Positions 4,180 through 49,704 of a DNA stretch of 51,856 nucleotides are shown piece after piece. The notes under the pieces are model-generated. The model made no database searches. It saw only the letters and a program-made list of their open reading frames with translations, and had not been told where the DNA came from. Both the position numbers and the translations under genes were made by a program. The stretch is from Candidatus Uhrbacteria bacterium CG10_big_fil_rev_8_21_14_0_10_48_11 (GTDB taxonomy: Bacteria; Patescibacteriota; Patescibacteriia; GWA2-46-9), in contig PFET01000005.1 of the NCBI GenBank assembly GCA_002793855.1, positions 58,901 through 110,756 on the forward strand, given 5' to 3'. Each line of letters begins with the position of its first letter. Position 1 is the first letter of the stretch.

Positions 4180-6570
4180 ATGGTTACAGCAGTATCAATA
4201 GGGTTACGCACCGAAGAAGCCGAAACACGCCTTGAGCGCTTTGGTAAGAATGAGGTTGCGGAACACAAGAAGAGTATTGTTGCGAGTTTGGCGAAGTGGT
4301 TTTTTTCGCCAATTGCTCTTATGCTGCTCTCGGCAATCGGTTTGTCGCTCTTTGCTGGCCGCACCTCTGACGCAGGTATTATCGCGGCTTTGCTCATTTT
4401 AAATTTTGGCATTTCCGGTTGGCACGAGCATAAGGCCGACACGGCGGTCGCCAAGTTGCGTGATCATTTGCACGTTTTTGTTTCGGTTATTCGTGACGGG
4501 AAGGAGGTGCGCATTGATTCAACCGATGTGGTGCCTGGTGATATTATCCGCCTTACCATCGGCAATATCGTTCCGGCAGATGTGGTGTTTTGAGAGGTTA
4601 ATAACGTTACCGTTAACGAGTCAGCGGTTACCGGAGAGTCCTTGCCGGTACAAAAAGAAATAGGGGGGAAAGGTTCTACCGGTACGTTTCTTGTTACCGG
4701 TTGGTCGTTGGCTGAAGTAACCGCGACCGGTGCGTTAACTGCTTTCAGCAAAACCTTAATGCTGGTTGAAGGCAAGCGCAGCCTAATGGAGGAAGACATT
4801 CCTACGATTTCAAAATTTTTAGGCGGCATTAGCGTTACTGTTGCGATTTTATTAACAACGGTTTCTTTCTTGTGGCACGTGCCACTGCTCGATATTTTGA
4901 CCCTCGATGTTAGCTTGTTTATTGCCGGTATTCCGGTGGCGCTGCCGACCGTAACGAGCCTTATTATTAGTATTGGGGTCGTTGGTTTAACGGCGAAGAA
5001 TGTTATTGTGCGTCGTCTGTCGTCTCTTGAAGAGCTAGCAAATGTCACCTTGCTGCTTAGCGACAAGACCGGCACGTTAACAGAAAACACTATTGCCGTT
5101 GAGCGCGTTATCACCTATAGCGGTGACGAAAAACACAACCTCGCGCTGGCGGCGGCAACAGTTGCGGGAGATAATGAAAATCCCATTGATCGAGCGGTAC
5201 TGACTGCCGCCAAGGCGGAGTCGACCGAAACGTTCGAACGGACACAGTTTATTCTGGCAGATTCAAGTCGCAAGCGGGCAACCGCTACGCTTACGATTAC
5301 TGGCAAAGCTCATACGGTGGCGTTTGGCGCTTCACAGGTGGTTGAAGCGTTATGCACCTTGTCGAGTCAAGACAAAAAACGTTTTGCTGCCGACGTCGCA
5401 GAGGCTGCTGAAAATGGCTACCGCGTTTTGGCGCTTGCCGAGGTAGTGGGGGACAAAGAGAAGGCAATGACACTCGTTGCCCTACTCTTACTGTCCGATA
5501 CCATCCGCCCTGAGTCGTCTCTTGTCATTAGCTTTCTTCAGAAGCACGGCATTGCTACCAAAATGGTGATCGGTGACAACGAAGCCATTACCACCCGCGC
5601 GGCTCGCGTACTGCAACTGGTTGGGCCGGTCATTCGGCGAGCAGATTTTGCCACGGAAGCTGGGTGGAATGATATTAAAAAACGCTTTGACGCAATTGGC
5701 GGCTTTGCCGAAATTTTACCAGAAGATAAGTATCGATTGGTTCAGTTCGCCCGTACGAAAGCCTGCGTGTCGGTGACTGGTGATGGGGTCAACGATTTGC
5801 CAGCAGTCAAGGCCGCCTCGGTTGGTATTGCTGTTAAGAACGCTGTCGATGCCCTCAAGGGTGCGGCGGATATTGTATTGTTGACGGATGGCATTACGGT
5901 CATTCGAGATGCGGTTATTGAAGCCAGAAAAATCTTTCAGCGTCTTTACAACTACTCGGTCTACCGCATCTCAGAAAGTTTTCGAGTTATCATTACGGTT
6001 GCTGTGCTGGGGCTTCTCTATGGCGATTATCCGCTAACACCAGTACAACTTATTTTACTCGCACTCCTCAACGATTTACCGATTATTGCTCTTGCTGTCG
6101 ACCGTGTTCGCGTGCCGGAGATGCCAGCCAAGATTAATGTTCGCGCGCGGTTCTTGCTAAGTTCGCTCTTCGGACTTGCCGGTATTATGAATAGTCTCAT
6201 GCTATTTTTCATTGCGGTTTACTGGTGGCATCTGCCTTGGGGAGAGTTGCAGACGATGTCCTTTTTGAAGCTGACGGTGTCGGGCCATATGCTTATCTAC
6301 GTGGCGCATACTGATGAGCCATGGTACAAATTTTTCCCAAGCCGTATGGTGATGGTGGCAACCATTGGCACCCAGCTTATTGTTACTGCCATGGCCGCTA
6401 CGGGTGTTCTTACTAGCCAGCTCTCTTGGCCGTTCATTATTTTTGTGTGGCTCTGGTCCTTCTTCTGGATGCAGATAAGCGAGCTAATGAAACACCTACA
6501 GCGTGCAGTTCGTTCCCGTTATGCCAATTTTTTTGAAGGCGCAACCGAAGCGGTACTTGAAGCCGAGTAG
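4180..6570 (+). pseudogene. P3A-type P-type ATPase (H+-ATPase-like) with an in-frame TGA
   Basis: A 796-codon frame encodes a plasma-membrane proton-pump-type P-ATPase: the TGES loop, M4, DKTGTLT with the phosphorylated Asp at codon 295, GDGVND near codon 535 and the C-terminal membrane helices. Codon 138 (4591-4593) is TGA, between VPADVVF and EVNNVTVNESAVTGES, with the same frame open on both sides. Family alignment by eye puts a Leu/Ile here; a TTA-to-TGA change would explain the stop, so it looks like a nonsense mutation, not recoding. The usual MVTGD motif reads MVIGDN, another hint of decay. A sequencing error, or two polypeptides made separately (restart at TTG 4642), cannot be excluded. 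Confidence 0.8.
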
Positions 6571-6603
6571 GGGGAGAGTTATACTACAGAGTAACAGAAT
6601 GTT

Positions 6604-7044
6604 ATGGACCAACATCTCATAAAGATTGATCCGGAAAAACACAGCGTCGCTACCACGGCTACTTCTCTGCCGCCACTTTTTCACTACTATGGCGATGCAG
6701 TTCGTCGGTTGTTTGTGGCGGCAGCGATTATCATTACCATTACGACACCCATTGTTTCCGCCTTTCTGACGCTTCCGACATTCAGCGCTATCATCGGCGC
6801 GCTCTTTTTGGTTATCGTTGCCGGGCTTACCAACCCGAGCGAGCGTTGGTCTTCGTCCTTGAACCTGACGGTTGCTGTACTTGGTGCAGCCCTTTTTCAG
6901 TACCGTGGAATTGCCGACTACTTAGCATTTACGGTAAATCCCGCCCAGGTATTTATGTTTACGGTCGACGAAGTATTAGCCGTCATTTTTATTATTGCCG
7001 TGTATTACAGCAGCAAGACGTTCCGTAGAATGTTTGTTAAATAG
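6604..7044 (+). CDS. small polytopic membrane protein, unknown function
   Basis: A 146-residue protein with a hydrophilic start, then about four hydrophobic segments (roughly residues 37-58, 60-78, 87-103 and 117-135) and a basic C-terminus (SSKTFRRMFVK). I recognise no catalytic motif. It begins 33 bases after the P-type ATPase and may belong to that transcription unit. The next gene follows closely. Confidence 0.65.
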   Translation: MDQHLIKIDPEKHSVATTATSLPPLFHYYGDAVRRLFVAAAIIITITTPIVSAFLTLPTFSAIIGALFLVIVAGLTNPSERWSSSLNLTVAVLGAALFQYRGIADYLAFTVNPAQVFMFTVDEVLAVIFIIAVYYSSKTFRRMFVK

Positions 7045-7165
7045 ATGACGCCGCTTCTTTTATCCCTCTCGTTTGCGGTCTACCCCATTGCTCGCGCCTG
7101 GTACGTTGGGCGTCGTGGACGAGGCAGATTATTGCTTGGCAAGCGTGGAAGAGTTAGCCAGAGAG

Positions 7166-8812
7166 ATGAACGGTAAAGAAATAGCCGATGGTATTCGGTC
7201 ATGTGTTGAGGGGGAAGTACGAAACGACGAAGCGACACTTATTGCCAACAGTACTGATGCCAGTCTTTTTTCTGTCCGTCCAGCTGTTGTCGTTGCGCCT
7301 AAGAACGAAAAAGAGGCCTGCTCCCTTGTTTCTTATATAGCGGAAGTGAGGACAAAAGGGACGGCCTGTTCTTTGACGGCGCGGAGTGCTGGCACGGATA
7401 TGTCCGGCGGTCCGCTTACCGAATCTATTGTTGTTAGTTTTACCGAACATTTTAACGCTGTTGGTGAGGTACAAGGGGACTCGGTTGAGGTTGCGCCCGG
7501 TGTTTACTATCGCGATTTTGAAAAGGTAACACTTGCCAAAGGACGGCTGTTGCCAAGCTATCCGGCGTCGCGCGATCTCTGTACTGTCGGGGGGATGGTC
7601 AATAATAATTCTGGAGGAGAGCGGAGCCTTGTCTATGGCAAGACCGCAAATTTTGTCGAAGTGCTGTCGGTGGTACTTCGTGACGGTAAGGTACATCAGT
7701 TTAAAAAAATTACTCTTGCTGAGCTTGAAGAGAAGAAGAAGGAGACTGGTCTAGGTGGCGAGATTTATAAAAAAATGCACGAACTGATACGTAGCAATGC
7801 GGCGCTGATAAAAAAAGCAAAACCAAAGGTTAGTAAAAATTCTGCAGGTTATGCTCTTTGGGACGTTCTTGACGAAGAATCCGGCACGTTTGATTTGACC
7901 CGGTTACTGGTTGGCTCACAAGGGACGCTGGGGTTAACGACCAGCATTCGTTTTCGGTTGGTACAGCCAAAAGCATTTCGGCGGATGCTCGTCATTTCAT
8001 TAAAGAATCTGGACCACTTACCGGACATTATCGAGCGCGTGCTTCGTTTTCATCCAGAAACATTCGAATCGTACGACAACCATACTTTTCGGGTAGCAAT
8101 GAAATTTTTGCCTTCTATTCTCCGTCGCGTGCTTCGTGGCAATTTGATTATTGCGGGTCTGCATCTCATTCCGGCTGCCTGGTCAATTATTACCGGCGGG
8201 TTGCCGGCGCTTGTACTGTTGGTTGAATTTACCGATGACGACGAAGCAGTCGCCAGCAAGCAGGCAAAAGAGGCCGAGGCCGCGCTTGCCGATTTGCCCA
8301 TTAGAACACGGGTTACGGGCTCGACCGCCGAAGCAAATGCTTTTCTTACCATTCGCCGCGAAAGTTTTGATTTATTGCGAAAACACGTTCGCGGTATGCG
8401 AACGGCGCCGTTTATTGATGACTTTGTCGTGCCGCCGGCGGTATTACACGAGTTCTTTCCAAAACTGCATACCATTTTAGAATCAGCAAAATTCGTCTAC
8501 ACTATTACTGGACACGTTGGCGATGGCAATTTTCACATCATTCCGCTTATGCCCATTCATGACCCGCGGCTGGCGACACTGATACCGGATATTGGCGGCA
8601 AGGTATACGATCTGGTGCTTGCCTACGGCGGTTCGATTACCGGAGAGCATAATGACGGTCTCATTCGGACACCGTACCTAGAGCAGCAGTTTGGCAAAGA
8701 GGTTTGCGCGCTCTTCCGCCAGACGAAAGAAATTTTTGATCCTGATACTCTCTTTAATCCCGGTAAAAAAGTCGACGGTTCACTTTCGTATGCGCTTTCC
8801 CATCTTTCGTAG
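7166..8812 (+). CDS. FAD-linked oxidase, D-lactate/glycolate dehydrogenase-like
   Basis: A protein of about 548 residues. The N-terminal FAD-binding PCMH-type domain shows RSAGTDMSGGPLTESIVVSF and PSYPASRDLCTVGGMVNNNS. The C-terminal FAD-oxidase domain has GHVGDGNFHIIPLMP and GGSITGEHNDG, ending in FDPDTLFNPGKKV as in GlcD and D-lactate dehydrogenases. It probably oxidises a 2-hydroxy acid and passes electrons to a membrane or soluble acceptor. The ATG at 7166 is preferred because it begins at the family's usual N-terminus, 11 bases after a weak purine run; a TTG at 7073 would add 31 residues. No Fe-S partner gene is adjacent. Confidence 0.82.
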   Translation: MNGKEIADGIRSCVEGEVRNDEATLIANSTDASLFSVRPAVVVAPKNEKEACSLVSYIAEVRTKGTACSLTARSAGTDMSGGPLTESIVVSFTEHFNAVGEVQGDSVEVAPGVYYRDFEKVTLAKGRLLPSYPASRDLCTVGGMVNNNSGGERSLVYGKTANFVEVLSVVLRDGKVHQFKKITLAELEEKKKETGLGGEIYKKMHELIRSNAALIKKAKPKVSKNSAGYALWDVLDEESGTFDLTRLLVGSQGTLGLTTSIRFRLVQPKAFRRMLVISLKNLDHLPDIIERVLRFHPETFESYDNHTFRVAMKFLPSILRRVLRGNLIIAGLHLIPAAWSIITGGLPALVLLVEFTDDDEAVASKQAKEAEAALADLPIRTRVTGSTAEANAFLTIRRESFDLLRKHVRGMRTAPFIDDFVVPPAVLHEFFPKLHTILESAKFVYTITGHVGDGNFHIIPLMPIHDPRLATLIPDIGGKVYDLVLAYGGSITGEHNDGLIRTPYLEQQFGKEVCALFRQTKEIFDPDTLFNPGKKVDGSLSYALSHLS

Positions 8813-17607: not shown

Positions 17608-18347
17608 ATGGTTTTATAAGTTCGCAACTTGGTCAAAACCTTTGGTTCGTTTACTGCAGTAGACGACATTTCTTTTTCTGTAGCAGAAGGAGAGTTCTTA
17701 GGGTTCTTGGGTCCGAATGGAGCAGGAAAAACCACGACTATTCATATGCTCCTCGATCTTACCCAGCCGACGAGTGGTATAGTTACCTTTTTTGGAAAAA
17801 CATTTAAGCACCACCACTCTGAAATTTTACAACAGGTAGGGTTTACCTCCCCTTACGTTGCGTCACCGTACCGGCTTACGGTGTACGAGAATCTGCGCGT
17901 GATTGCGGCGCTCTATGGTATTTGACGCCCAAAAGAACGCATTGACTACCTTCTGAAACTTTTTCAGCTAGAAGCTTTGAAGCGTAAAAATGTTGTTATG
18001 CTTTCCTTGGGAGAGATAACGCGAGTGGGGCTCTGCAAGGCGTTTATGAATCAACCCAAGTTACTTCTCTTGGATGAGGCGACTACTTCTGTTGACACCA
18101 CCATTGCGCACGAGGTTCGCGAAGTACTGGTGCGCGCCCAACGGTAAGAAGTGGTGCGCGTACTTTACACTTCACACAACATGGCGGAGATTGAGAAGCT
18201 CTGTTCACGAGTTATTTTTTGAATCACGGACGCATTGTTACCGAAGGGTCGCCCGTTGAAATGACTCGGGCAATTTTAAAAGAAGAACGAAGCGAACCTT
18301 CACTTGAAGAAGTTTTCATCCGGATATCGAAAGAGCAAAAAGTATAA
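17608..18347 (+). pseudogene. ABC-2-type transporter ATPase, degenerate
   Basis: The remains of an ABC exporter ATPase (NatA/CcmA type). Walker A GPNGAGKTT, the Q-loop region, Walker B LLLLDEA and the H-loop SHNMAEIEKL are visible. Four lesions break it: TAA at codon 4 (17617-17619) just before VRNLVKTFG, TGA after ALYGI (17923-17925), TAA after VRAQR (18146-18148), and a -1 shift in a T6 run near 18216 that must be reversed to read LNHGRIVTEGSPVEM and the C-terminus. The signature is eroded to LSLGEITRVGL. The mixture of stops and a frameshift indicates a dead gene and not recoding. Confidence 0.85.
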
Positions 18348-19095
18348 AAGGTTATCGTATCCTTGCTGTTGTCCGTCGGCATCTCTACGAAATGCGTCGC
18401 ACTCTTGATCGGGTTGGCGATATGGTGTACTGGCCGGTGTTAGACGTACTTGTTTGGGGGCTTTTTACCGTTTACCTTTCAGATCAATTTTCATCCGGAC
18501 TTACTATCATCAACGTGTTACTTGGTGCCATTATTTTGTAGGGAGTTTTTTATGCCTTTCAGCGAGATTTGGCAATTGGTTTTTTGGATGAGCTTTGGTC
18601 GCGCAATCTTGTAAATTTATTTTCGACACCACTTACCGTTTGGGAGTACGTCGTTGGATTGTTGATTGTAAACGTAGCAAGGACATTCTTCGGTGTGGCG
18701 GCAGCTGCGCTTATTGCCTGGTTTGCGTACGCCTTTAACATTTTTTCACTATCCCTCTGTGTGTGCCTTATCTTTTTATTTCGCTTCTTTTTAGTTTGGC
18801 ATTTGGGTTTTTTATTACCGGCCTTATTTTTCGTTACACGATACGCGTGCAGATGGTCGCATGGAGTTTTGCCGGTATTTTGCAGCCATTGTCGTGCGTG
18901 ATGTACCTGCTTTCTACGCCACCAACGTGGCTTCAGCGTCCGGCTCTCTGGTTGCCAACAACACACGTCTTTGAAGCAATGCGACAAAGTCTGAACGGCG
19001 GAGAATTTTCGCCTTCACATTTCTGGTGGGGTTTTGGCTTATCGGTCGTATATCTTGTACTGGCAGTGCTGTTTTTAAGTGGCTTTTTGAGGTAA
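18344..19095 (+). pseudogene. ABC-2-type transporter permease, degenerate
   Basis: The membrane partner of the preceding ATPase, with six or so hydrophobic segments. The reading frame opens with YRILAVVRRHLYEMRR and PVLDVLVWGLF. It hits TAG at 18539-18541 (after LLGAIIL) and changes frame near 18755-18770, in a CTCTGTGTGTGCC repeat. The C-terminal half (QVMAWSF-like region at about 18850, then LLPTTHVFEAMR-type motif) is in another frame. Family features remain readable, so decay is recent. No intact start codon is evident. The coordinates are those of the recognisable homology. Confidence 0.8.
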
Positions 19096-19451: not shown

Positions 19452-19829
19452 TCATAGGAGCCGAGAGTGTCCGACGATGACGGGTCTTTCGGTTACCCGC
19501 CGGACGAATCGGAAATCGATGGCATCGCTGGTCACGATGCTGGTACCCACCACCTCGATTTCGTGCGTGATCATGAGCTTGGGCAGGAACGCGACCAGAA
19601 GCGCGCTCTGCGCAACGACGGCACCGAAAGGATTAGGCGTCTTTTGCTCGATGCCGGTATGGAGCCATCCGTCATCGCCGGTCACAGCGGCGAAGTCTAC
19701 GATGTCAGAGGCGGTGACTTCATACCCCAGACTCCATGCTCCGAAAGGTCCACCACATTGAGCCTTGAGAGCGTCTATGTCTTCGTAGTGCATTTGCTTT
19801 GTTGTTTGGACGGCTGCTGCTGTTGTCAA
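19452..19829 (-). CDS. MaoC-like hot-dog dehydratase domain protein
   Basis: A 125-residue protein starting at TTG 19829, chosen because AGGAGG lies six bases upstream. It resembles MaoC/NodN-type acyl dehydratase domains: GYEVTASDIVDFAAVTGDDGWLHTG, with the Asp and His of the hydratase motif, then PFGAVVAQSALLVAFLPKL. The C-terminus is short; the usual final strands after VRFVSP-like sequence are compressed to DFRFVRRVTERPVIVG. It might act on an acyl-thioester, but no fatty-acid genes are near. The strong Shine-Dalgarno sets it apart from the surrounding genes and suggests a different origin. Confidence 0.65.
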   Translation of the reverse strand: MTTAAAVQTTKQMHYEDIDALKAQCGGPFGAWSLGYEVTASDIVDFAAVTGDDGWLHTGIEQKTPNPFGAVVAQSALLVAFLPKLMITHEIEVVGTSIVTSDAIDFRFVRRVTERPVIVGHSRLL

Positions 19830-20004
19830 TGGACACCTCCTGTTACCCTCATTTATTTTTTGTCCGTAGTTAAAGCGTAGGGATTGGGTGGGGGACGTCA
19901 AAAGGGGTTTTTGTTACGCTTTTGCGCTGGCCAGTTTTTTGGACTCTCTACAAAAGCCGTAGGGTTGTGATAAAAATTTTAAAGTTAATAGGTTGATTTG
20001 ATTG

Positions 20005-20097: not shown

Positions 20098-23000
20098 ATG
20101 GAGGGCAACAAGCAAAGTGTGGGATACTGTTCTATTTTCACGCGGAAAGCGGTCTTGTTTATGGCCGCGTTTTTGTTTGTATCAATCGCCGTTGTCCCCA
20201 CCCATTCGGTGCAAGCAACAAACTATGATTATATTGATCACGATACGGTGTGGGGCCCTGAAGCGGGAGTTCATATTTTAGGGCAACCAGTGGTTGTGAA
20301 TGCCGGCGTTACCTTGCGAATTGAACCGGGTACGATTATTAAGGCCGGAATTTTTGGTACGCTTCTCGTTAACGGTGCTCTCATCGCAAACGGAACAAGT
20401 GACAATCCTATTACGTTTACCGCCTACAAGGACGATTCGATTGCAGGAGATACGAACGGTGACGGCAACACAGGCATTCCCACCATATTCGATTACTGGC
20501 CCGGCTTACGTTTTTATGCCGGTAGTAGCGGCGAACTTTCTCACACTCTGTTTCGCTACGGCGGGAATAGTCGATTGAGCAACGAGGGTGACCAGGATCA
20601 AATTTTTGCAAAAGACGCAACGTTAACCCTACGGGACTCTAAAATTTTTGACAGTGTTTATAGCGGCACGCAAATTGAATTTTTGCGATCACAAGTAACG
20701 CTTGAGCGTAATGAGATAGAGCAGAGCAGTGACGTAACGGGTTATGGTTTTGGTACGGGGCTACTTATTCGTGGTGGTAATGCTCAGATTAAGGACAACC
20801 TCTTTCATCGAAACGGCGCCTATGCCGTACTCTTTGATAGTCATACACAATATGGTCCGGCAACTGTGGTGTTCCAGGGGAACAGCCTTTACAACAACGG
20901 TTTGTCATACGCAAACGCGTTTAAGGTTAAGTACGGTATTGGTTGTGACGGCAATGATACTTATGACCTTAGAAATAATTGGTGGGGTGACGCAACAGGT
21001 ACGAAGGTTGATGCAAACCCGCAAGGGAAAGGAGAGCCAATACGTAACTGTGACGCGCTGGTTAGTCCGTGGCTTACCGTACCTCCGGGTCTGCCACAGA
21101 ACGGGCGCCGTCCAGTCTTGTTGGTTCCAGGTATTGCGGGCAGTGAGCTCAAGAAAGGTAATGATAAAATTTGGCTAGATCTAACTAAAATTCTTTTTGA
21201 TTTTAATGACAGTTTTCTCGATGTGCTGGCAATGAACGAAGATGGTACGCCGACCGATCCAGAGGTGACGCACGGGGACGTCATCCGTACTCTTAATAAA
21301 GGTATTCCACTTATTTCGTACGACTATTTTGGTGGACTCATTGATGAACTTACGACACAAGGATACCAAGAGAATACGACCATGTTTCTTATGCCGTACG
21401 ACTGGCGAGAGGGGATGTACCCGCTCAGTAAGGAGCTGAAACAAAAATTGTTGGATGTCAAAGAGCAAACACATAGCGATGTTGTGGATGTTGTGGCGCA
21501 CAGCATGGGAGGCGTGGTCGTGGACAATCTTACCGGTTACAGCCCCTACGATACTGGCATTGGTAAGCTCATCTTTATCGGTACGCCACATATAGGTGCA
21601 CCAAAAGCACTAAAGGATTTATTGTGGGGTGACGATTTAGGTGTACCATTTGTTCTAAATAAAAATGAAATAAAAAAGATAGTTCAAAATATGCTCTCTG
21701 TTTATGACTTACTCCCGAACAAGCAGTACTTCAAGATCAATAGTGGATACTATTACGATTTGACGCAAAATAGCGCGCCCAAAGTTCTTAACCTCACTGA
21801 CATGGTGGCACTTTTTATCGATAAAGGTTTAAATTTGAGAGGATTACAAGACGTGATCAACGCATACTACCCGCACAATTTTCCGTTTACTGACTCAAAC
21901 ATAGATGCCTACAACATTTCTGGTTGCGACTCGCCAACCATTACCGGCATTATCGAGCGTCCAAATGAAGAGTATTACCTTCGTATTGGCGCGGGTGATG
22001 AAACGGTGCCATTAAGCAGTAGTAATTACGTGGCACCACTGGTAGCTAAAAGTTACTATATACGTGGCGCGGATCATGGAAAAATGGCGAGTACTCCGGC
22101 AGTACGTAGTTTGGTTGCTGACTTGCTAACTAGCGGTGTGCCGAGCGTTTCCGAACTACCAGCTGGCATTACCACCAGTACCGATGGGTGTGCTCTTCAA
22201 GGAAAGTTCGTATCAGTGCACAGTCCTGTTAGCCTTGATATTCACGACGACAGTGGAAATCACGCCGGGCCATCAGCAAATGGTCTCATTGAGAACACCA
22301 TCCCCGGTGTTTATTACGAAACAATTAGAGAAAATAAGTTTGTTTTTCTTCCTAGCGGTACTTTTGATGTCACCCTAACTGGCACGGCTAGTGGTACGGT
22401 AGATTTAACGGTCGATACCTATAGCGGTGAACTGATGCATGAGGTAGCTTATCAAGCTATGCCGGTCACGGTCGGTAGTCTTGCGCAGCTCACCATTACC
22501 CCGACAAGCGCGGATACAGAATTGCAGTATGATTATACTGGCAGCGGTCAATTTCAGGATTACGAAGCCACTGCCACTTCGTCTACTTCAGCGGCGTATG
22601 ACTTTATTTCCCCGACAACGACCGCACAGCTCTCGGACACGGCCGGCAATAGCAGCTGGTATCAAGAGCCGGTGACCATGACCCTTGCCGCGTCTGATAG
22701 TAACTCGGGTGTTGCCAAAACAGAATATCGTACTGACAATGGGCAATGGGTTAGTTACACTGCGCCGGTTATTTTTAACGACGACGGAGTTTACCGCGTC
22801 TTCTACCGGTCGACTGACAGGGTAGGAAATGTTGAAGACGAACAGAGCGTCGCTTTTTCCATTGACCGCACAGTCCCCGATGTGAGTATCTTGTTTGAAA
22901 ACGGTCACGAAAAACCTACCGTTGAAGGAACTGACGCAATTTCTTCTGCTATGGTTCTTGAGATTGGCGACAATACTTACAGAGTTAGCGATGAGGCAGG

Positions 23001-23337
23001 TAACCTTGTAACCTTGGTGTTTGTTCTAAAGGTGAAAAAGAGTGGCAGCAAGGCAAAACTTAATGAGGTGCGCTATAATGGTATTGCGCTACCGGTAAAA
23101 CCAATTACTTTTGTTAACAGTACGGTTTACGATAAAAATGATGAGCTCAAAAAGATAAGACAAAAAATTGCAGTTCCAAAATATTTGAAGGTTGGCAGTA
23201 TTTACAAAGGAAGTTTAGACGAAACTAGTATTACGGCTAAGTTGTACGACGAAGAGAAAGACAAAACTGTTCTTGGTGGTATCGCAACAGTAAAATTATT
23301 AATTAGTAATGGGCAGTTTAGCTATGAAACAGATTAA
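20098..23337 (+). CDS. large secreted beta-helix / LCAT-type lipase protein
   Basis: A 1079-residue exported protein. A signal segment (about 17-40) ends near HSVQA. Residues 60-330 look like a right-handed beta-helix, closing with NNWWGDATGT. Residues 345-700 form a lecithin:cholesterol acyltransferase/PGAP1-like alpha/beta hydrolase: PVLLVPGIAGSEL, nucleophile Ser469 in VAHSMGG, likely acid Asp634 in GAGDETVPLSSS and His660 in GADHGK. Residues 840-930 resemble an OmpL47-type Ig module (SGVAKTEYRTDNGQWVSY, VYRVFYRSTDRVGNVE). It probably cleaves or transfers acyl chains of external lipids. A small membrane protein gene overlaps its end. This domain combination is unusual. Confidence 0.8.
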   Translation: MEGNKQSVGYCSIFTRKAVLFMAAFLFVSIAVVPTHSVQATNYDYIDHDTVWGPEAGVHILGQPVVVNAGVTLRIEPGTIIKAGIFGTLLVNGALIANGTSDNPITFTAYKDDSIAGDTNGDGNTGIPTIFDYWPGLRFYAGSSGELSHTLFRYGGNSRLSNEGDQDQIFAKDATLTLRDSKIFDSVYSGTQIEFLRSQVTLERNEIEQSSDVTGYGFGTGLLIRGGNAQIKDNLFHRNGAYAVLFDSHTQYGPATVVFQGNSLYNNGLSYANAFKVKYGIGCDGNDTYDLRNNWWGDATGTKVDANPQGKGEPIRNCDALVSPWLTVPPGLPQNGRRPVLLVPGIAGSELKKGNDKIWLDLTKILFDFNDSFLDVLAMNEDGTPTDPEVTHGDVIRTLNKGIPLISYDYFGGLIDELTTQGYQENTTMFLMPYDWREGMYPLSKELKQKLLDVKEQTHSDVVDVVAHSMGGVVVDNLTGYSPYDTGIGKLIFIGTPHIGAPKALKDLLWGDDLGVPFVLNKNEIKKIVQNMLSVYDLLPNKQYFKINSGYYYDLTQNSAPKVLNLTDMVALFIDKGLNLRGLQDVINAYYPHNFPFTDSNIDAYNISGCDSPTITGIIERPNEEYYLRIGAGDETVPLSSSNYVAPLVAKSYYIRGADHGKMASTPAVRSLVADLLTSGVPSVSELPAGITTSTDGCALQGKFVSVHSPVSLDIHDDSGNHAGPSANGLIENTIPGVYYETIRENKFVFLPSGTFDVTLTGTASGTVDLTVDTYSGELMHEVAYQAMPVTVGSLAQLTITPTSADTELQYDYTGSGQFQDYEATATSSTSAAYDFISPTTTAQLSDTAGNSSWYQEPVTMTLAASDSNSGVAKTEYRTDNGQWVSYTAPVIFNDDGVYRVFYRSTDRVGNVEDEQSVAFSIDRTVPDVSILFENGHEKPTVEGTDAISSAMVLEIGDNTYRVSDEAGNLVTLVFVLKVKKSGSKAKLNEVRYNGIALPVKPITFVNSTVYDKNDELKKIRQKIAVPKYLKVGSIYKGSLDETSITAKLYDEEKDKTVLGGIATVKLLISNGQFSYETD

Positions 23338-23653
23338 TATTCTAAGAGCGGTAAAGATGATAGGTTTTTTGGTTATAGGTTTATTACTAGGGTATTTATT
23401 TATTACATTAAGCGACCAGTTTGAGATTACTCGATTTAATTTTTCCATATTTGGTGGCCCGTCATGGGCGCTTTGGCTCTACCCATTCTATTTGCTTACG
23501 GGGTATTTGATTTCGGCTATTGTCTTTCGGATGGGGAGGAAGACATACCTTGGGGTTGTTATCGCTTTTGTCCTCTTTTTCTTGCTTCTGCTTTTCTTGA
23601 CCCAGGGGCAGCTTTTCGACAACTGGCGATTGTTCGGCGTTGATGCCTATTAA
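23324..23653 (+). CDS. small membrane protein partner of the lipase
   Basis: A 109-residue protein with three hydrophobic segments (about 10-28, 45-68 and 74-94) and no recognised motif. Its ATG at 23324 lies inside the last codons of the lipase gene (14-base overlap), so it is translated from the same mRNA. The overlap suggests a joint function such as export, anchoring or immunity, but that is inference. No Shine-Dalgarno. Confidence 0.65.
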   Translation: MKQINILRAVKMIGFLVIGLLLGYLFITLSDQFEITRFNFSIFGGPSWALWLYPFYLLTGYLISAIVFRMGRKTYLGVVIAFVLFFLLLLFLTQGQLFDNWRLFGVDAY

Positions 23654-47653: not shown

Positions 47654-48039
47654 GGGGATGCAATGGTTTCGACGGAAAGTTCCTTCCGAAAAAACAGGTA
47701 GAGCGTGAGACAGCTCTCTAATCTCTCTCAAACACATATCTGCCACATCATTGGCACGCAAGGTTCAGAACGCTTTTGCGTCTCTGAGTTTTGCTCCTGC
47801 TCTCGCCTAATATAGCCGAGAGCCATCCCTGCTCTTTCGTCGAGTGAGAGCGATCGGGGTGTTATATTACTCGGCGCTCCTCATCGTGCGGTTCCAACGT
47901 GGTGAGTGAGTACTACCGGAACACAGCTCGTCGCGTCGTCGCCGGACTTCGACGGGTGAAGACTGATCGGCGACTAAACCTGTAGTTTTTTTCGGTTTCC
48001 CCTTTCCAGACAGGGGTTCAATTCCCCTCATCTCCACCA
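47654..48039 (+). ncRNA. ssrA: transfer-messenger RNA (tmRNA)
   Basis: The 5' end GGGGATG followed by GGTTTCGACGG is the diagnostic tmRNA start. The 3' end CAGGGGTTCAATTCCCCTCAT is the T-arm, and CATCTCC-ACCA pairs with the 5' end. The tag reading frame at 47754-47810 encodes ARKVQNAFASLSFAPALA and then TAA, ending in the hydrophobic ALA that proteases recognise. It lies directly after smpB, so the rescue pair is linked. CCA is encoded. Confidence 0.97.
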
Positions 48040-49570: not shown

Positions 49571-49644
49571 GGACCCGTGGTGTAGCTGGTTAACACGTCT
49601 CCCTGTCACGGAGAAGATCGCCGGTTCGAGTCCGGTCGGGTCCG
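49571..49644 (+). tRNA. tRNA-Asp (anticodon GTC)
   Basis: A 74-base cloverleaf: acceptor GGACCCG/CGGGTCC with discriminator G, D-arm with AGCTGG, anticodon stem CTCC(CT)GTC(AC)GGAG with GTC at 49605-49607, and T-loop GGTTCGAGTCC. CCA is not encoded. The flanks extend the acceptor helix: TGTCGTCT upstream pairs with AGACGACA downstream (about 49556-49563 with 49651-49658). Confidence 0.97.
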
Positions 49645-49704
49645 CGGTGTAGACGACACAGCGAAAGGTGTTTTTCGTTTAGTAAGGTATTTTTATATTC
49701 AAAA

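Follow-up and report, generated by a model that had tools for sequence, protein, structure and literature searches.

This locus raises the question of what a member of the Patescibacteriota does with an exported hydrolase of 1079 residues, and whether the enzyme works alone. The gene lies at positions 20098-23337 of a 51,856-nucleotide stretch of contig PFET01000005.1 from Candidatus Uhrbacteria bacterium CG10_big_fil_rev_8_21_14_0_10_48_11; we call the whole stretch the window, and the gene, its parts and its partner are all on the forward strand. Sequence comparison and structural modelling lead us to favour, with modest confidence, the view that the product is an exported enzyme, a serine phospholipase A/acyltransferase from the LCAT/group XV phospholipase A2 superfamily, which would strip acyl chains from the membranes of a host or neighbouring cell. 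The most distinctive feature of the locus is a small membrane protein encoded beside the enzyme, which the original prediction had overlooked.

The hydrolase core, as delimited by Pfam, profile and model, spans residues 336-700 (21103-22197), and the Pfam LCAT family (PF02450) matches residues 356-550 within it at 1.1e-19, with 71.5 bits against a curated cut-off of 21. The catalytic triad that the original prediction had read directly from the sequence is confirmed to the exact residue: Ser469, the nucleophile in AHSMGG (21502-21504, context VVAHSMGGV), Asp634 in GDETVP (21997-21999, context IGAGDETVP) and His660 (22075-22077, context RGADHGKMA). It is invariant in all 48 full-length relatives, a set that leaves out four proteins that were cut or ran off their contigs (L079, L080, L091 and L117), and Pfam LCAT matches every one of the 48 at E 0.001. 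An alignment of 40 homologues, made without the duplicate loci L001, L028, L029 and L034, retains the Ser in all rows and the Asp and His in 38 each, the two gaps being truncated rows; YDWR or YNWR is found in 40/40. The best named relatives of the enzyme (L002, L003) come from Moraniibacteriota and from a Patescibacteria group bacterium. Equivalents of Cys610 (21925-21927) and Cys698 (22189-22191) are both present in 28 of the 48 relatives and both missing in 20, with a single cysteine in none; because the two always occur together, they are predicted to form a disulfide, which is consistent with export. Residues 1-41 (20098-20220) resemble, as judged by eye, a signal peptide with a predicted cut after VQA, and a hydrophobic stretch is found close to the N terminus in 42 of the 48 relatives.

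The original prediction had named in advance the lack of an alpha/beta-hydrolase core in a predicted structure as a refutation. Such a core is present in a core-only AlphaFold model built from nine sequences (model mf2550159def4, numbered from residue 326; mean predicted local distance difference test score (pLDDT) 64, predicted template modelling score 0.74), where Ser469 follows strand 138-143, Asp634 strand 302-306 and His660 strand 324-330 in model numbering, as the fold predicts. The best structural match of this model is lysosomal phospholipase A2 (4x92; VIA-align Z 25.5, root-mean-square deviation (rmsd) 3.7 A, 310 residues aligned; Foldseek E 1e-14), and LCAT is second (6mvd_B; Z 23.0, rmsd 3.8, 301 aligned). 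A profile of 15 cores, searched against the PDB, likewise places lysosomal phospholipase A2 first (1e-18 over 310 positions) and LCAT next (1.4e-16). The Asp of the family GDETVP motif and the His pair in this alignment with GDGTV and HIEM in the lysosomal enzyme.

The partner is encoded by an open reading frame (ORF) directly downstream of the enzyme frame and overlapping it (23309-23653). It is predicted to be a protein of 114 residues with three transmembrane (TM) spans, spans here and below being called by a simple hydropathy rule. It has one clear homologue, G001:C20 (34%, 7e-15), which likewise adjoins the enzyme gene of its genome; if the sixth codon is taken as the start in both, the window partner has 109 residues (ATG at 23324) and each partner gene overlaps its enzyme gene by 14 bp. 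Neither the window partner nor the scanned members of the four partner groups, A to D, found beside related enzymes had a Pfam match above the family's cut-off. Since 4 of 20 other genes of at least 250 residues in the window also adjoin an ORF with two to four TM spans, the neighbour seen here is weak evidence taken alone, and the case is carried by G001 and the wider family.

In that wider family, an ORF of 70-150 residues with two to four TM spans stands beside the enzyme gene, on the same strand and at -90 to +60 bp, in 28 of 43 loci, as against 4 of 90 other genes of at least 250 residues from the same loci (Fisher p 7e-14); among the exported-like control genes, 1/11 has such a neighbour. 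The 43 were retained from 51 loci after genes less than 300 bp from a locus edge had been dropped and with the window excluded. As the loci were chosen mainly from the stronger, long-frame LCAT matches, the figure applies to the long exported type. The genomes are spread over many contigs and contain some broken frames, among them the enzyme frames at L070 and L092, which have a group-A gene nearby and were scored as misses. Under a looser neighbour filter, 32 of 52 enzyme genes pass, one of them at L101; the neighbour there is a PAP2 phosphatase (2097-2621 of that locus, 1e-16), which follows the LCAT gene in place of a small TM protein and is therefore not a partner. Four further loci (L126-L129) all have a neighbour of the small membrane type, with 121-164 residues.

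The partner gene follows the enzyme gene in some lineages and precedes it in others, and group A occurs on both sides. Group A (13 seeds) is related to group C (hhalign 84%, 7e-6); groups B and D and the window partner have no detectable relation to A or C, so that a single partner family is not supported. In a phylum sample of 379 genomes, mostly of 0.5-1.5 Mb, the LCAT family was found in 69 at E 0.001, of which 62 exceed the curated cut-off and about 57 have an open frame of at least 300 residues. Group A was detected in 17 of the 379 genomes, all within these 69, and once its 12 seed genomes in the sample are set aside, 5/5 of the remainder have LCAT (chance 8e-5). Its 23 places comprise 14 that adjoin an LCAT gene, three that adjoin an LCAT C-terminal piece, four extra tandem copies and two at contig ends. 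Group B, present in six of the 379 genomes, all with LCAT, has 12 distinct places: ten next to an LCAT gene, an orphan (L186) and a fusion (L187). In the fusion (3881-4723 of L187) the partner is joined in frame to the C-terminal module of an LCAT protein whose hydrolase is missing. Three partner copies stand in tandem at L094 and two each at L075, L076 and L095. A C-terminal membrane helix was found in only three of the 48 relatives (L087, L097 and L116), and all three lack a partner (chance 0.037; two of them are sisters), which is suggestive that enzymes with their own C-terminal TM span need none.

We also considered whether a small TM gene might follow any protein with an OmpL47-type module. 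This was rejected: six loci without LCAT that encode a protein with the OmpL47-type module or a match to the C-terminal profile (L133-L138), a small control, have no adjacent three-TM gene, the exception of a sort being L133, where a 198-residue ORF with two TM spans lies about 170 bp upstream. Several loci depart from the common layout. At L068, a 310-residue protein consisting of the C-terminal module only (1043-1975) is followed by its own group-A partner (738-1046), beside a full LCAT pair. Three genomes of family f109 (L078, 3383-6088; L086, 1281-4004; L089, 3485-6388) have an LCAT gene with no small TM neighbour, and in all three an ORF of 272-279 residues without TM spans begins 48 bp after the LCAT gene, possibly another kind of partner. 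An IMG/VR contig (L139) encodes an 876-residue LCAT-type protein (4968-7598) in which no signal peptide was seen, followed by a 191-residue ORF (7619-8194) whose N terminus resembles a membrane span.

How the partner works is a matter on which we hold two views to be about equally probable. An anchoring role is suggested by C-terminal remnants that keep a partner, by the one fusion and by the proteins that carry their own C-terminal helix and have no partner; a protective role is suggested by partners that are small and diverse, occur in tandem copies and in one case stand as an orphan. We put forward, tentatively, a dedicated two-component lipid harvester of Patescibacteria, in which the exported LCAT/PLA2G15-type phospholipase would work only together with the adjacent three-TM protein. 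This protein might anchor the enzyme at a contact site via the C-terminal beta module, and it might shield the parasite's own membrane or receive the products into it. Relatives have several partner families of the same size and span number, with no detectable likeness between them, which stand before or after the enzyme gene; these would then fill the same place.

The protective role also fits a different purpose, namely that of an antibacterial phospholipase weapon directed at competitors or at a host envelope, with the small membrane protein as an immunity factor for the membrane of the producer. We regard this as the less probable use of such a pair, though one to be taken seriously. The structural matches of the core model include Tle4, a type VI secretion system (T6SS) phospholipase effector known with Tli4 (4r1d_A; Z 20.2, rmsd 3.7, 314 aligned), and the short, diverse partner genes with their tandem copies and single orphan have the look of immunity genes; tandem copies and diversity are, however, also compatible with an anchor or adaptor. 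Moreover, immunity genes are frequently orphans, whereas most partners here adjoin an enzyme gene.

A digestive role is unlikely. An exported lipase or polyester (polyhydroxyalkanoate, PHA) depolymerase acting on storage lipid or polymer, not on membrane phospholipid, would account for the NCBIfam PhaZ7-type model (NF050060) matching 13 of the 48 relatives, and for the similarity of the core model to PhaZ7 (2vtv_A; Z 18.9, rmsd 3.1, 227 aligned) and to small lipases from bacteria, which align over 168 residues at a Z of about 20. Yet the scores of lysosomal phospholipase A2 and LCAT are higher and their alignments cover about 300 residues as against 168-233, and the window protein has no match to NF050060 at E up to 1. 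Least probable, and in our view improbable, is remodelling of the cell's own membrane by an extracytoplasmic acyltransferase/phospholipase that forms lysolipids in place for a strongly curved small cell, with the partner as membrane subunit: the predicted integral membrane protein is tightly linked to the enzyme and the accessible text of PMC7242380 ties the high lysolipid content of Candidate Phyla Radiation (CPR) bacteria to curvature, but the large beta-helix or Ig-like (immunoglobulin-like) additions point to reach away from the cell and most of the phylum lacks the family.

The acquisition of acyl chains from other cells, the function that we favour, would proceed as follows. The enzyme would sit at the cell surface, retained or neutralized there by its membrane partner, and Ser469 would take acyl chains from phospholipids belonging to a host cell or a neighbour. 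Lysolipids and fatty acids would be released, or the acyl group passed to another acceptor, and the products would feed a cell that has none of the lipid-synthesis genes tested, a lipid auxotroph. The beta-helix and the OmpL47-type module would serve as spacer or adhesion parts that vary by lineage. The substrate, the host and the part played by the partner, as anchor or immunity factor, are what we infer.

The genome context agrees with this scheme. The assembly (891,313 bases in 16 contigs, 97.39% complete) has one LCAT match, and at that completeness no match was found in it for ketoacyl synthase (PF00109; 14/14 control genomes match), PlsC (PF01553; 10/14), PlsY (PF02660; 8/14) or CDP-alcohol phosphotransferase (PF01066; 14/14). 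Because these four families are unmatched, lipid scavenging, raised in the original prediction as relevant to a probable episymbiont, is plausible and has gained in strength; the episymbiotic lifestyle itself is suggested by the size of the genome and the pathways that it lacks. A MaoC-like (hot-dog) gene on the reverse strand (19452-19901), divergent from that of the enzyme, is the sole possible fatty-acid-related neighbour seen and makes no pathway.

Several observations weigh against the favoured function. The superfamily also includes lipases, acyltransferases and thioesterases. Confidence in the core model is no more than moderate (pLDDT 64), with values below 50 at model residues 301-310, which bear Asp634, and the placement of the triad derives from strand order. 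A full-length AlphaFold model from three sequences reached a pLDDT of 39, and we therefore claim a structure for neither beta-helix nor C-terminal module. Finally, 310 of the 379 phylum genomes lack the LCAT family and are presumably likewise unable to make lipids; as most genomes do without the family although they are presumably lipid auxotrophs, the enzyme is not a general lipid route.

The remaining parts of the protein explain why the enzyme should be defined by its hydrolase and C-terminal module. The start codon is uncertain because GGAGGG falls within codons 1-3, and the real start may be GTG codon 8 or ATG codon 22. A right-handed beta-helix takes up approximately residues 46-327 (20233-21078), with the Pfam Beta_helix match (PF13229) at residues 158-294 (2.9e-9, 37.2 bits against a cut-off of 25.9). 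The core is followed by a beta-rich linker (residues 701-854, 22198-22659) that begins the conserved C-terminal module, whose profile matches most relatives, then by a 68-residue, probably Ig-like module of the OmpL47 type (residues 855-922, 22660-22863; NF047446, 3e-21, 75.7 bits against a cut-off of 40), which Pfam Big_13 matches weakly, and by a tail without anchor motif (residues 923-1079, 22864-23334), along which blastp similarity to relatives extends to residue 1077. Beta-helix, LCAT-type hydrolase and OmpL47-like module thus do occur in one protein, as had been proposed, each over its curated cut-off. The coupling of beta-helix to hydrolase as the defining trait did not hold up: a Pfam beta-helix is found in only four of the 48 relatives, the region N-terminal to the core ranges from 0 to 581 residues, and the polysaccharide binding ascribed to the helix is not supported. 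The OmpL47 likeness stands for the 68-residue module, which is found in 27 of the 48 relatives, and does not extend to evidence for an outer-membrane barrel, since the Leptospira OmpL47 equivalog model (NF047441) gives 53.2 bits against a cut-off of 250 and the module is present in 205/379 phylum genomes. On sequence grounds, the conserved unit is the hydrolase with the C-terminal beta module, and the beta-helix is optional.

Some further observations concern these modules and the rest of the window. The OmpL47-type module often occurs in the phylum in very large proteins and is a common module. A whole-enzyme search of 57 genomes gave matches somewhere in 15, some through the beta-helix only. 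At the junction of beta-helix and hydrolase, NNWWGDATG (20974-21000) lies in a stretch common to otherwise different proteins of other groups (L010, L011). Upstream of the enzyme, an ATP-binding cassette (ABC) transporter is split over several frames (17629-19095), with an ATPase piece at 17629-17925 (ABC_tran, 1.3e-14) and part of an ABC-2 permease at 18763-19095; this reflects either decay of the gene pair or sequence errors. The window also contains a tmRNA gene (transfer-messenger RNA; 47654-48039) and a tRNA-Asp gene (49571-49645).

Lysolipids are reported to be enriched in CPR bacteria, and the accessible text of Probst et al. (PMC7242380) proposes that they come from other cells or bacteria, with phospholipase A as a possible source. 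The available portion of PMC12455944 also proposes secreted phospholipases for such bacteria, and that of PMC8080830 puts forward one, Vamp_34_196, in Vampirococcus lugosii, where it would break the host membrane and supply phospholipid. Because the fold and the family were known already, as were proposals of secreted phospholipases, the enzyme is not a new class. We found no publication on LCAT-type enzymes in Patescibacteria in the literature searched, with supplements and subscription papers lying outside the search, and as far as this literature shows, what is new is the spread of the LCAT-type family in the phylum together with its linked membrane partners. The pair, recurring in relatives, is a good candidate for the acquisition of lipid from other cells, and the question of where CPR lysolipids originate now has named genes, a residue to mutate (Ser469) and a partner to co-express.

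The Vampirococcus phospholipase is a counterpart by proposed role, being likewise taken to act for a CPR bacterium without lipid synthesis; unlike the window enzyme, it has no partner protein in the available part of its description (PMC8080830). The OmpL47-type domain proteins (NF047446) share the one module, present here as a single copy and below the cut-off of the Leptospira equivalog. Tle4/Tli4 resembles the window pair in its alpha/beta-hydrolase fold and in the two-gene layout of enzyme and small partner; the window enzyme, however, has a predicted signal peptide where Tle4 is T6SS cargo, its partner is a three-TM protein, and inhibition by that partner is conjectural. With LCAT (PDB 4x96, 5bv7, 6mvd) it shares the Pfam family and the structural match over 301 residues, whereas the window enzyme is bacterial and multidomain, and a sterol and lipoprotein context is known for the LCAT side only. 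The best structural match among these known systems is PLA2G15, the group XV lysosomal phospholipase A2 (4x90/4x92), which has the same alpha/beta-hydrolase core with cap, aligned triad motifs and a PYDWR motif, at about 19-20% identity; to this core the window enzyme adds a large beta-helix, a beta module, a predicted Cys610-Cys698 pair and the gene of a membrane partner.

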